From the NCBI RefSeq assembly GCF_900113245.1, contig NZ_FOOQ01000001.1, positions 372,001 through 436,000 of the forward strand: a stretch of 64,000 bases of DNA. The letters run 5' to 3'. Shown one piece after another: positions 8,998 through 63,438 of this stretch. The stretch comes from Halopelagius inordinatus (GTDB lineage: Archaea > Halobacteriota > Halobacteria > Halobacteriales > Haloferacaceae). Position 1 is the first letter of the stretch. Every line of letters begins with the position of its first letter. The position numbers and the translations under genes were made by a program. Under the pieces are notes generated by a model, which was given only the letters and a program-made list of their open reading frames with translations, did not search any database and was not told the DNA's origin.

Positions 8998-9875
8998 CGC
9001 CGCAACAGCCCTCCGAGACGGTGAAGCGGGCCGCCGACTACCTCGGCGTCCCTCGCGAGGATGACCGTCTCGTCGGTCCGTTTCACGATTCGTCTCGCCA
9101 CCGACCCGACGAGTCGTCGTCGAAGCGCGCCGCGTCGAGTCGCCCCTAACACGACCACGTCGTGGTTCGCCGCCGCGTCGCCGATGGCGTCCGTCGGGTC
9201 AGCGGCCTCTCTGACGACGGTTTCGACCGGCAGGTCGGCGTCGGTGGCGAGGACCATCCGGTGGCCCTCCGCCGCGAACTCTCGTGCCGCCGCCGCGTCC
9301 GTTTCCGCGTCCGCCACCGCGAAGACGACCACCCGGGCGTCGTTCCGAACGGCGATAGCCACCGCCATCACCGCCGCAACCTCGACGTGCGGTCCGCCGG
9401 CGACGGGGAGGAGAACGGAGTCGACGCCGTCGGCCTCGCGTCCGATGCGTTCGACGTACAGGTCGCACTCGGCCCGTTCGACGAGTGCGTCGACGGTCGT
9501 TCCGAGGACGGCCTCGCTCCGCCGCGAACGCCCCCGCCACCCGACGAGGAGCGCCGAGGGGTCGCTCTCTTCGACCGCTTTCAACAGACCGCGAGTCGGC
9601 GACCGCGCGACGACGATGTCGCGTTCGACGGCGACGCCGTCGGGCGCGTCCGCCCGTTCGAGGAGTTCGCGGCTGTCTCCGGCGTACTCGCGGACGATGG
9701 TCTCGTCGTCGAACACGCCGAACGGCGAGTCGTAGGGTTTCACCACGACGGTCACGAGGCGCACCGTTCCGTCGCCGAGGCGCGCGAGGTCACCGGCGGT
9801 TCGAACCAACTGCCGGACGTTCTCGGGGTCTCTGAGTCCGACCAATACCGGTCCACCGGTTCCGTCGTCGGCCAT
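8994..9875 (-). CDS. Two-domain universal stress protein, coupled to pitA
   Basis: Reading from the ATG at 9875 (MADDGTGGPVLVGLRD) gives 293 residues in two Usp-like halves, about 1-145 and 150-280. The first half ends with LLVGWRGRSRRSEAVLGTTVDALV. The second ends with VVLGATRRGALRRRLVGSVARRIV, where the Gly-rich nucleotide motif is only partly kept. The longer frame upstream to 9947 is not conserved-looking. The stop codon overlaps the GTG of the Pit transporter by 4 nt. In haloarchaea Usp domains often accompany transporters, which fits a regulatory partner role. Confidence 0.88.
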   Translation of the reverse strand: MADDGTGGPVLVGLRDPENVRQLVRTAGDLARLGDGTVRLVTVVVKPYDSPFGVFDDETIVREYAGDSRELLERADAPDGVAVERDIVVARSPTRGLLKAVEESDPSALLVGWRGRSRRSEAVLGTTVDALVERAECDLYVERIGREADGVDSVLLPVAGGPHVEVAAVMAVAIAVRNDARVVVFAVADAETDAAAAREFAAEGHRMVLATDADLPVETVVREAADPTDAIGDAAANHDVVVLGATRRGALRRRLVGSVARRIVKRTDETVILARDAEVVGGPLHRLGGLLRR

Positions 9876-23216: not shown

Positions 23217-24665
23217 ATGGACTTCGGGCGACTCCGCGGCGTCTGGCGTCGCGTGTTCTCGCTCGCGTGGCCGGTGATGGCCGAACAGACCACGCGGACG
23301 CTGATGCGGACGGTGGATATCCTCGTCACCGCCGCCCTCTCTCCCGCCGCCGTCGTCGCAATCGGCCTCGCGGACCTGTTCGCGCGCTTCCCGCTCAGAA
23401 TCGGCCTCGGACTCGGCGGGGCCGCCATCGCGCTTTCGAGTCAGGACACCGGAAGCGGTGCCGACGCGAACCGGGACGAGGCGGTGACGCAGGGACTCCT
23501 CGTCGCGTTCGTCACCGGCCTCCCGTTCGTCGCCTTCGGTCTCTTCTTTTCGGAGTGGGCGGTCGGTCTGTTCCCCGCCAGCGACGACGCGGTGCGCCTC
23601 GGCGGGACGTACCTCGCCGTCGTCTTCGCGACGGCACCGGCGCGCCACGTCGCTCTCGTCGGTGCCCGCGCCCTGCAGGGCCTCGGCGACACCCGCACGC
23701 CGATGTACGTCAACGTCGTCGCCAACGTTCTCAACGTCGCCCTCTCGGTGGGCCTCGGCTTCGGCGTCTTGTTTCTCCCGCGGTTGGGCGTCTTCGGCGT
23801 CGGACTCGCCACGTCGGCGGCGAACGTCCTCTCGGCCGGACTGCTCGTCGCGGCGACGTACCGCCCCGCCTCGCCCGTGACGTTCGCGCGCCCGACGGAC
23901 CGGACGGTGGCGGCCCAACTCGTCCGCGTCGCGACGCCCCGGGCCGCGGAGGGGTTCGCTACCGAACTCGCGGAGTTCCCGTTCAACGCGTTGCTCCTCT
24001 CCGTCGGCGGCACGGGCGGCCGACCGTCCGGCGACGTCGCAGAGCTCGGCTCTGCGGCCCACCAGACTGTGTCTGGTGACGTTATCAACGCCGGATTTCA
24101 GGTCGGCCGCCGGGTGTACCAACAGGTGACGAGTCCGCTCTCTCGCGGGTACAACGTCGCCGGGAGCATCCTCGTCGGACAGGCGCTCGGACGCGGCGAG
24201 GAGTCCGTCGCGCGGTACGAGGGGTGGGCCACCGCCGCGCTTTCGCTCCTCTCGGTCGGTGGCATCGGCGTCGTCCTCGCCGCCTTCGCGGACCCCGTCG
24301 TCGCCGTCCTCGGATTCGGCGGGTCGCCCGAAGCGCTCACGTACGCGGCGGAGTTCGCCGTCGTCTACGGTCTCTCCGCGCCGATGCTCGCGGTGTTCGT
24401 CGCTCTCTCTGGCGCGTTACAGGGTGCCGGTGCGACTCGGCTCCCGTTTCTCGCCCGCGTCACCGGCATGTTCGGCTTCTTCGTCGGCGTCTCCTACCTC
24501 GCCGTCGAGTGGTTGGAACTCGGCCTGTTCGGCGTCTACGTCGGCGTCTTCCTCGCGTATCTCTGGATGGGACTGTTCGCCGTCGCGGCCTTCGCGCGCG
24601 CCGATTGGGCGGGGCGGGCGGCGGGACTCCTGCACGAACGCGGGAGCGTCGACGCCGACGACTGA
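23217..24665 (+). CDS. MATE family efflux transporter (with in-frame 48-nt element)
   Basis: A 482-residue, 12-helix MATE/DinF exporter that pumps out small compounds using a cation gradient. Twin-domain structure is visible: AWPVMAEQTTRTLMRTVDILV at the start of the first half, VGRRVYQQVTSPLSRGYNVAGS in the second. Residues 274-289 (VAELGSAAHQTVSGDV) are encoded by a double-hairpin element at 24036-24083. They fall in the loop between the halves, just before INAGFQVGRR, and SGDV occurs at both ends of the insert. The frame is kept, so the exporter may still function. The ATG at 23217 is chosen over upstream codons that lie in the divergent gene. Confidence 0.92.
   Translation: MDFGRLRGVWRRVFSLAWPVMAEQTTRTLMRTVDILVTAALSPAAVVAIGLADLFARFPLRIGLGLGGAAIALSSQDTGSGADANRDEAVTQGLLVAFVTGLPFVAFGLFFSEWAVGLFPASDDAVRLGGTYLAVVFATAPARHVALVGARALQGLGDTRTPMYVNVVANVLNVALSVGLGFGVLFLPRLGVFGVGLATSAANVLSAGLLVAATYRPASPVTFARPTDRTVAAQLVRVATPRAAEGFATELAEFPFNALLLSVGGTGGRPSGDVAELGSAAHQTVSGDVINAGFQVGRRVYQQVTSPLSRGYNVAGSILVGQALGRGEESVARYEGWATAALSLLSVGGIGVVLAAFADPVVAVLGFGGSPEALTYAAEFAVVYGLSAPMLAVFVALSGALQGAGATRLPFLARVTGMFGFFVGVSYLAVEWLELGLFGVYVGVFLAYLWMGLFAVAAFARADWAGRAAGLLHERGSVDADD
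24036..24083 (+). repeat. 48-nt double-hairpin element, copy A (in MATE gene)
   Basis: Hairpin 1 is GCAGAGC-TCG-GCTCTGC and hairpin 2 is CACCAGAC-TGT-GTCTGGTG, separated by a few bases. The element is exactly 16 codons and reads VAELGSAAHQTVSGDV. It aligns codon for codon with copy B (38421-38468) and copy C (33673-33720, minus strand). TCCGGCGACGTC before and TCTGGTGACGTT at its end may be a decayed duplication. Confidence 0.8.
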
Positions 24666-32922: not shown

Positions 32923-33918
32923 CTAATCAACCGCACGCTCCGGCCGGTGGGCGACCACCGCCGTCCTGCGGTCTCCCGGCACGGATTTACAAGCAACATC
33001 CGCGAATCCGGCGTCGGTCAACCACTCGCGGTAGGTCGCCTCCGGGTAGGCGTCGCCCCGTCCGACGCCGAGGGCGCGCATCCGCGCGGCGACGGCCTCC
33101 GGCGACCCGTCGCGGAGAGCGTCCACGATGACGAAGACCCCGCCCGATTCGAGGGCATCGAACGCCGCGGCGCAGAGCGCGCGGTTCTCCGCGGGGTCGA
33201 GTGCGCTCGTCGCGTCCGCGGCGAACGCGAGTCCGAACGCCTCGTCGTCGAGGCCGAACTCTTCGGGCACCTCTGCGGCGACGGTTCGGACGCCGCGGTG
33301 ACGCACCATCTGTTCGACGGCGTCCACGCAGGCGTCGTCGTCTACGAGCGTCGTCTCGAACCCCCGCGCGGCGAACTCCGTCGCGTACGCCCCCGACGCG
33401 CCGAGGAGGTCGACCACTCGCTCCGCGTCGGGGCGTTCGCGGACCGCGGCGGTGACGCGGGCGCGAACCACCGCGTCCTCCGTCGCGGCGTGCGCCCCGA
33501 GGCGGTTCCGGGTCCAGTCTGCGGGCAGGTCGGGGGCGTCGCCCGTCGCCATCGTCTCCGGTAGGGCGGTCCAACAGTCCAGCAGGTCCAACGCGTGCGG
33601 CAGGCGGCCGATGGACCGAACGTCTCGCTTCGCGAGAAATCCGAGCGCGCGGTTCGTAATCTCGTACTCGCCGCCGTCGCCAGACTGCGTCTGGCGGGCT
33701 GACGAGCGTTGCTCGTAAACAACGTCGCGGACGAACCCGAGGTCGGCGAGCGATTCGACGACGACGACCGCCGCCTCTTCGGTCACGCCCGCCTCCGCGG
33801 CCGCCTCGCGTGGCGTCCCGGCGGTGTCGAGAATCGCCTCGAGGAGGCCGCTCCGGCGGGCGGCCCACAGTAAGAGGAGTTCCTCCACGTCGTGCGACGA
33901 ACTGTCTCGGGTCGGCAT
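32923..33918 (-). CDS. SAM-dependent methyltransferase (with in-frame 48-nt element)
   Basis: A 331-residue protein with an N-terminal winged-helix-like dimerisation region (about 5-90) and a class I methyltransferase domain (about 155-320, VVDLLGASGAYATEFAARG). It resembles O-methyltransferases of small molecules. Residues 67-82 (VYEQRSSARQTQSGDG) come from the inserted double-hairpin element at 33673-33720. Removing them joins GFVRDV to GEYEITNRALGF, as expected for the family. The start is the ATG at 33918. It lies between two pcm paralogues on the same strand, 21 bp and 43 bp away. Confidence 0.85.
   Translation of the reverse strand: MPTRDSSSHDVEELLLLWAARRSGLLEAILDTAGTPREAAAEAGVTEEAAVVVVESLADLGFVRDVVYEQRSSARQTQSGDGGEYEITNRALGFLAKRDVRSIGRLPHALDLLDCWTALPETMATGDAPDLPADWTRNRLGAHAATEDAVVRARVTAAVRERPDAERVVDLLGASGAYATEFAARGFETTLVDDDACVDAVEQMVRHRGVRTVAAEVPEEFGLDDEAFGLAFAADATSALDPAENRALCAAAFDALESGGVFVIVDALRDGSPEAVAARMRALGVGRGDAYPEATYREWLTDAGFADVACKSVPGDRRTAVVAHRPERAVD
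33673..33720 (-). repeat. 48-nt double-hairpin element, copy C (in methyltransferase gene)
   Basis: On the minus strand, hairpin 1 is ACGAGC-AAC-GCTCGT and hairpin 2 is CGCCAGAC-GCA-GTCTGGCG. The element reads VYEQRSSARQTQSGDG in the frame of the host gene. Hairpin 2 is identical to that of copy B at 38.4 kb except in the loop. It is inserted in frame and does not break the gene. Confidence 0.8.
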
Positions 33919-38354: not shown

Positions 38355-38645
38355 ATGGTTGTCGGCATCCTCTACGTCGCCGACATCCAAGACGTCCGCG
38401 TCAGTAACCCCATCTTCGGCGTCGCCGAACTCCGTTCGGCGGCCCGCCAGACGTAGTCTGGCGACGTCGTTCCCCGTCGACTCGTCGGCGTGTTGGGGGT
38501 CTCGTTCGTCACCGCGGCGGCGCTTATGACCGGGTTGGGGCGCGTCGAGTGGGCGACGCCGGGACTCGCGATAGCGGACGTCGTCGTCGCGTTCGTCCCG
38601 ATGAGCATCGGTGCGGCACTCGGCGACATCCTCCCCGGGACCTGA
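38355..38645 (+). pseudogene. Small membrane-protein gene broken by a 48-nt element carrying TAG
   Basis: From the ATG at 38355 the frame reads MVVGILYVADIQDVRVSNPIFG, enters the element at 38421, and hits TAG at 38454-38456. After the TAG the same frame continues to a TGA at 38643-38645 with membrane-like sequence (VGVLGVSFVTAAALMTG, AIADVVVAFVPMSIGAALGD). Deleting the 48 nt would give one continuous frame of 80 residues with NPIFG joined to VPRRLVGVLGV. The gene is therefore probably inactivated by the element. The host family is not recognised. An alternative is that only the downstream part is translated from an internal start. Confidence 0.7.
38421..38468 (+). repeat. 48-nt double-hairpin element, copy B (with in-frame TAG)
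   Basis: Hairpin 1 is CGCCGAAC-TCC-GTTCGGCG and hairpin 2 is CGCCAGAC-GTA-GTCTGGCG. In the frame of the host gene it reads VAELRSAARQT-stop-SGDV, aligning without gaps to copies A and C. The stop arises in the loop of hairpin 2, the most variable triplet of the family (GTG in A, CAG in C). Confidence 0.8.
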
Positions 38646-62891: not shown

Positions 62892-63031
62892 CTGACGGAG
62901 TCCCACGCGAGCGAACGCGAGCGTGGGGCAAGTCAGGTCACGAACGAAGTGAGCGTCCTGACGGAGATTTGAACTCCGGTCCCTGGCTCCGCAAGCCAAG
63001 AGGATAGTCCACTACCCTACCAGGACTCACT
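62892..63031 (-). repeat. 140-bp repeat containing tRNA-Arg copy 1
   Basis: Identical over 140 bp to 63299-63438 (offset 407). It consists of a 3'-end fragment of tRNA-Arg, the 54-nt double-hairpin insert, and the complete tRNA gene. Confidence 0.8.
62954..63026 (-). tRNA. tRNA-Arg (GCG), copy 1
   Basis: The minus strand starts GTCCTGGTAGGGTAGTGGAC and folds into a 73-nt tRNA. The acceptor is GTCCTGG/TCAGGAC with a final G-T pair, anticodon stem TTGGC/GCCAG, loop TTGCGGA (anticodon GCG). The T-arm CCGGAGTTCAAATCTCCG is intact. It is identical to copy 2. Confidence 0.95.
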
Positions 63032-63298: not shown

Positions 63299-63438
63299 CT
63301 GACGGAGTCCCACGCGAGCGAACGCGAGCGTGGGGCAAGTCAGGTCACGAACGAAGTGAGCGTCCTGACGGAGATTTGAACTCCGGTCCCTGGCTCCGCA
63401 AGCCAAGAGGATAGTCCACTACCCTACCAGGACTCACT
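63299..63438 (-). repeat. 140-bp repeat containing tRNA-Arg copy 2
   Basis: Exact duplicate of 62892-63031. The flanks differ, so duplication or gene conversion was limited to this block. Confidence 0.8.
63361..63433 (-). tRNA. tRNA-Arg (GCG), copy 2
   Basis: Identical to copy 1 in all 73 positions and in about 60 bp downstream. Both copies have all stems intact, so both may be functional. Redundant tRNA-Arg(GCG) is unusual in a haloarchaeon with otherwise single tRNA genes. Confidence 0.95.

Follow-up and report, generated by a model that had tools for sequence, protein, structure and literature searches.

A candidate mobile 45-nucleotide double-hairpin element, apparently undescribed, inserted in frame in protein genes of haloarchaea

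The window analyzed here, a stretch of 64,000 nucleotides from Halopelagius inordinatus, carries three copies of a short double-hairpin element, each within a gene. The genes and features are the following.

23217-24665, plus strand: gene of a MATE family efflux transporter, host of copy 1, start inferred (Pfam PF01554, 6e-35; TIGR00797 above cut-off)
24033-24077, plus strand: copy 1, a 45-nt insert in the MATE gene that adds DVAELGSAAHQTVSG (sequence; orthologue comparison)
24036-24083, plus strand: 48-mer originally delimited at copy 1 (RNAfold: two hairpins, -29.8 kcal/mol)
24038-24056 and 24060-24078, plus strand: hairpins 1 and 2 of copy 1 (RNAfold)
32923-33915, minus strand: methyltransferase-like gene, host of copy 2, start uncertain (weak Methyltransf_23 match, 4.5e-5, below the curated cut-off)
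33676-33720, minus strand: copy 2, a 45-nt insert that adds VYEQRSSARQTQSGD (empty-site comparison)
38355-38645, plus strand: conserved small membrane-protein-like gene, host of copy 3, start uncertain (translation; homologues)
38421-38465, plus strand: copy 3, a 45-nt insert (uninterrupted relatives)
38454-38456, plus strand: in-frame TAG of copy 3, at the loop of hairpin 2 (sequence)

An earlier note, made from the sequence alone, had described three elements of 48 nt with their peptides and two adjacent hairpins in each. All three are where it placed them and encode the peptides it gave, with a pairwise identity of 31-37 over 48 nt, and RNAfold agrees that each 48-mer folds as two adjacent hairpins, with 3-nt loops. 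The identity of second-hairpin stems in two copies holds for those at 33.7 and 38.4 kb (CGCCAGAC/GTCTGGCG), whereas the 24.0-kb copy differs (CACCAGAC/GTCTGGTG). The common length stood only in part: three 48-mers are present, but the unit that repeats and is inserted measures 45 nt, because empty sites differ by 45 nt and tandem copies are spaced by 45 nt. The sequence CCAGACNNNGTCTGG has exactly three mismatch-free occurrences in the window, each within one of the elements. A matrix built independently, by training with 62 copies of other genomes, assigned copies 1, 2, and 3 scores of 40.2, 38.9, and 36.8, the best score of the same matrix on 60 dinucleotide shuffles of the window being 13.0.

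The MATE protein of the window has its best named match in H. pallidum, at 81% identity. Among 42 named Halobacteria orthologues, 40 are without its insert (in H. limi the sequence is LLSFGGDVANAGFQ); in H. pallidum the same site is filled by a copy of different sequence, and Halobellus rufus has a different insertion. In an AlphaFold2 model the insert is the low-confidence loop 266-284 between two helices and the sole internal stretch with pLDDT under 50, so that the predicted location in loops is borne out in the one structure modelled. Another short insertion, rich in Gly (24009-24032), lies immediately 5' of copy 1, and most relatives are without it; an insertion rich in Gly/Ala occupies this same site in Halobellus rufus. 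At the site of copy 2, four genomes have no insert: it reads FVRDV/GGEYE (the slash marks the insertion point) in the congener and similarly in H. limi, H. pallidum, and a same-family genome. The gene of copy 3 is uninterrupted in 15 relatives (NPIFGV/VPRRLVG), the congener being 90% identical across the joined flanks; given the TAG at the loop of hairpin 2 and the intact gene in relatives, copy 3 probably disrupts its host gene.

The unit of 45 nt consists of GAC-GT, hairpin 1 (8 bp, 3-nt loop), GSC, and hairpin 2 (8 bp, 3-nt loop), followed by the next GAC. The consensus feet are CGTC on the 5' side and GACG on the 3' side, with variants, and support is weak for an outer GACGT/ACGTC stem, in which pairing reaches 80%. 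The blocks CRGAC/GTCYG of hairpin 2 are kept across families of Halobacteriales. In the genome of H. inordinatus a pattern for hairpin 2 only gave 19 matches per strand, against 1-2 for a reversed control. Of 17 hits selected solely by hairpin 2, 12 had hairpin 1 paired at 7-8 of 8 positions, compared with 2.7 of 8 for a shifted-partner control. A chance origin was rejected on the counts of the pattern against its reversed control and on the matrix scores against shuffles.

A covariance model built from 21 copies, its seed partly selected for pairing, found at least 125 matches at E<=1 in this genome. Since the element is almost symmetric, the model finds it on either strand, and the model's E-values look optimistic in G+C-rich DNA, with many weak matches; therefore we count strong matches only, at least about 50 at E<=1e-6. 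At E<=1e-3 there are at least 67 distinct candidate places, all copy numbers being lower bounds, and the prediction of many further copies in the genome is thus confirmed. A tandem pair at C1:50487-50588 lies outside any clear gene and has four consecutive hairpins sharing GACGTC. At C2:123381 and C1:63785 hairpin 2 occurs without hairpin 1, as half elements or remnants.

By a codon model trained on the window, used rather than curated annotation, 41 copies of the genome are clearly coding, and 31 of them lie on the same strand in phase 0. The same holds for 49 of the 54 coding copies in other genomes, the rest being on the reverse strand in phase 0, and the anticipated enrichment in one frame is therefore found. 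The favored frame adds 15 residues, D-V-x-E-x-x-S-[AS]-x-R-x-T-x-S-G. The remaining frames encode more basic peptides, which may be poorly tolerated in the acidic proteins of haloarchaea, and selection would remove insertions that carry stops or lie in other frames. The idea that the element survives through its open frame needs an amendment for the 38.4-kb copy, which carries a stop and probably inactivates its gene. The host proteins are unrelated and include MATE, GH13, GH32, PurF, a thioredoxin-reductase-like protein, a phosphoesterase, and histidine kinases. The family illustrates a recurrent route for 15-residue segments into conserved proteins.

The comparison of filled and empty sites demonstrates how precise the insertion is. 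Five Haloferax sites, in TrpA-, ValS-, DapB-, and PurH-like genes (names inferred from peptides) and in one histidine kinase, carry the insert in a single species and lack it in four more, the DNA sequences differing by exactly 45 nt, with a flank identity of 91-100%; at a sixth site, in another kinase, a second species was found to be filled as well. The insert is 45 nt in every clean filled/empty pair, and about ten filled/empty comparisons at the protein level within the genus support a 45-nt insertion. Copies of H. inordinatus have empty counterparts in the congener, H. pallidum, H. limi, or a same-family genome (for example, FEFE/DGSVRQ in four genomes), and nearly all tested sites are empty even in the congener. 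One copy, at C2:422629, has an orthologous copy in the congener with a paired stem change. Absence at orthologous sites had been predicted, and it is seen in the congener, other relatives, and Haloferax; distant orthologues are without the peptide. The likeness to Rickettsia palindromic elements (RPE) drawn by the earlier note is confirmed with respect to in-frame insertion in unrelated protein genes, and its reading of the elements is supported, with the corrections given here. These comparisons of sequences make it very probable that the element is a mobile in-frame palindromic one.

The preferred targets resemble the 5' arm of the element itself, about GACGTCGNCGAA. Its first nine bases resemble the downstream host flank above shuffles (z 3.9 at position 4 and 4.5 at position 7), and the left end compared with the downstream flank over positions 3-14 gives z 4.8 above shuffled flanks. 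The insertions are flanked by imperfect direct repeats that vary from ~3 to 17 nt. The repeat in the DapB-like gene matches at 16 of 17 nt, and at some sites, such as C1:913416, only GAC(G) is duplicated, with little homology; direct repeats like the 17-nt one of the DapB-like gene could also have arisen by target duplication, instead of reflecting similarity that was there before. The right-hand bases of the ValS-like gene, GACAGC, are element-like, the four empty species having GAGTCC or GATTCC, and at the N-box of histidine kinases the right copy (GACGCC versus AACGCG) is element-like, unlike the host. Such junctions, which mix host and element bases, are easier to reconcile with homology-guided copying than with a fixed staggered cut. 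The proposition that the whole left arm and loop are always a host duplication was rejected as a general rule: the loop positions have no excess over shuffles, although the DapB-like site does fit.

Several sites were used repeatedly. The histidine-kinase N-box NAVEHG is a shared target of several genera, where as many as five 45-nt units form an array, and the TnpB tail AKRV/VEAGSP is reused in a Haloquadratum-like genome, Natrinema, and Haloterrigena. The PurH-like gene is filled at the same site in H. inordinatus and Haloferax marisrubri, and the copies at the MATE site of H. inordinatus and H. pallidum are different. Tandem N-box arrays of 2-5 units occur at Haloferax loci and in H. pallidum; in one Haloferax array two nucleotide types alternate that encode nearly the same peptide.

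We propose that the element encodes no protein and that its copies constitute a mobile palindromic repeat. In the least certain step, new copies would arise where the hairpins stall replication or expose single-stranded DNA: an existing copy would act as the template or partner wherever a site matches its 5' arm, and homology-guided template switching or recombination would then require no dedicated transposase. The N-box arrays of histidine kinases would subsequently spread among paralogues through conversion and unequal exchange. The explanation as a whole, a protein-less mobile palindromic repeat of haloarchaea whose frame is selected, whose hairpins are conserved and which spreads without a transposase, seems moderately probable to us; the transposase-free step, taken by itself, is a good deal more doubtful. 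The absence of Y1 domains in element-bearing genomes, together with the mixed junctions, favors copying from existing copies at matches to the 5' arm, and a transposase of another family, or a recombinase, may possibly act in trans. A more ambitious account can be given only tentatively: in a class-wide repeat, the 5' arm would address matching host sites, template switching provoked by the hairpins would insert the copy, the arm would restore the interrupted motif (as in the N-box), and conserved genes would tolerate the insert.

The main competing mechanism is a non-autonomous element moved in trans by a hairpin-recognizing Y1 TnpA (IS200/IS605-type) or RAYT, in the manner of REPINs and PATEs. 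Two hairpins with outer CGTC/GACG do look like REP dimers, haloarchaea are rich in IS605-type elements, with PATEs down to 52 bp, and eight copies of one genome sit in the tails of TnpB elements. However, the Y1_Tnp domain (PF01797) is absent from the genome of H. inordinatus, as well as from the congener and two other element-bearing genomes (G013 and G030), and conversely genome G066 has four Y1_Tnp matches and no element at E<=1e-6. The TnpB loci of H. inordinatus are also without a strong element match, and an origin from TnpB elements was rejected since the element model found weak matches only on these loci. The TnpB tail runs unbroken in an intact relative and is split by the element, which is therefore a passenger there. 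In the light of these data, movement by a Y1 transposase or RAYT appears unlikely. The copies in TnpB tails travel with a TnpB-derived repeat; seven of them are identical in the Haloquadratum-like genome G006, and reading these as IS ends was rejected, as they represent insertion in TnpB-element tails and were carried along.

Both stems covary in the covariance analysis, whose seed was partly chosen for pairing. The cleanest test is provided by 39 histidine-kinase units (24 unique sequences) that were found only through the codons of the peptide AVEHGSTG. In these, the third bases are complementary for Val/Ser in 34 of 39 units (17.8 expected), for Glu/Gly in 35 of 39 (19.1 expected), and for Ala/Thr in 30 of 39 (18.2 expected), and five control pairings of third bases in the same units have no significant excess. 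For the two inner pairs, p is ~5e-5 with all units and ~5e-4 with the 24 unique sequences. Third-base changes are silent, and therefore selection on the peptide is no explanation for the covariation, which indicates that the hairpins are conserved beyond the needs of the peptide, at the nucleic-acid level (as DNA or RNA, by selection or by palindrome correction).

Mutational palindrome correction could indeed maintain the complementarity of the stems in place of selection. Taken to its end, this would mean that the hairpins are unselected, intrastrand template switching perfecting imperfect palindromes in an element that is otherwise an immobile relic. The paired changes between orthologous copies (C2:422629), the single MATE site with different stems in two species, and the freedom of stem sequences to vary while pairing is kept are all in line with this, but the persistence of the CRGAC/GTCYG blocks of hairpin 2 across Halobacteriales families is not, and passive correction leaves unexplained the 45-nt insertions between species with 97-100% identical flanks; we consider it rather improbable. 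The weakest candidate is a domesticated module, a 15-residue linker kept for its benefit to the host protein, as the strong bias to a single frame and the N-box units that hold the peptide VEHGST while their codons vary might suggest, and this is highly improbable, given unrelated host proteins, nearly all tested sites empty even in the congener, silent covariation without a peptide reason, and one copy with a stop. Thus, of the selfish or domesticated in-frame element initially suggested, the insertion element stands, and the conservation of hairpins independently of the peptide argues against domestication.

The element is widespread in haloarchaea, as at least 39 of 40 relatives have matches. 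Among 247 genomes sampled across the phylum Halobacteriota, matches at E<=1e-6 were found in at least 34 of 43 Halobacteriales, whereas none of the ~204 other genomes is among the matches listed at this threshold, a natural but imperfect control since the base composition of the two groups differs. Named carriers include Halogeometricum, Haloferax, Halorubrum, Halolamina, Halomarina, Halogranum, and Halovivax; no element of Haloparvum sedimenti is among the matches listed. A viral vector was considered and rejected, as two pattern scans gave one weak match only (22 bits to the element model, at 9329-9379 of a viral contig). A literature search, mostly outside subscription journals, yielded no description of this haloarchaeal 45-nt family of double-hairpin inserts, which is apparently undescribed.

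According to a review, RPE are 105-146 bp long, with one long stem and terminal inverted repeats (PMC2229807; Ogata et al. 2000 as reviewed there). In that description they are palindromic repeats found in frame in unrelated protein genes, to which they add a peptide, and also in intergenic regions, as is the haloarchaeal element, which differs by its length of 45 nt and by two 8-bp hairpins in place of the long stem (PMC2229807). The same review cites a 2005 study of archaeal repeats that lie within protein genes and have open frames; these are likewise coding but come from another order of archaea, the comparison being one of descriptions (PMC2229807). The haloarchaeal element further differs from RPE by its unrelated lineage, its 5'-arm-like targets, and its tandem arrays; judged by sequence, it works as RPE do, yet forms a separate, smaller family. 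The archaeal coding repeats just mentioned are presumably the palindromic elements of Methanocaldococcus jannaschii.

The CGTC-tagged REPs, which include some RPE and dRS3, share with the element CGTC at the stem foot, 8-bp stems, paired hairpins, and no dedicated transposase, and the survey that describes them names no haloarchaea (PMC3733652). They have a loop of 4-5 nt, A-T pairs first in the stem, and a CCA tail (PMC3733652), whereas the haloarchaeal element has 3-nt loops, a C-G first pair, a GSC linker, and no CCA tail, and is mostly intragenic. Unlike REPINs and other RAYT-mobilized REPs, its consensus is without the GTAG tag, and PF01797 is absent in H. inordinatus. The PATEs and the terminal-only 52-bp IS605 remnants of Haloquadratum derive from IS605 ends, and PATEs are likewise haloarchaeal, transposase-free, palindromic, and ~50 bp at shortest (PMC3119063); in contrast to PATEs as described, the 45-nt element sits in ordinary genes and interrupts the TnpB tail as an insertion. 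The Yersinia YPAL/RU-2 repeats resemble it in duplications of variable length (3-26 bp) and in-frame fusions but are 168 bp long, mainly intergenic, and enterobacterial (PMC2229807). MITEs have terminal inverted repeats that match a transposon and a fixed target duplication; the direct repeats observed here vary from ~3 to 17 nt, and among the IS families screened no partner transposon was found.

To our knowledge, the spread of in-frame palindromic elements such as RPE is still an open question, in part because Rickettsia are hard to manipulate. Here a family similar to RPE is described in free-living haloarchaea, including the genetically tractable Haloferax. This tractability and the precise empty sites between close species allow direct tests of whether the element moves, how it chooses its targets, and what its hairpins do. 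At the gathering threshold, an Rfam 15 scan of the window retrieved tRNAs only, the element matching no known RNA family. Two tRNA genes on the minus strand, at 62954-63026 and 63361-63433, have equal scores and lie 407 nt apart, perhaps as a result of duplication.
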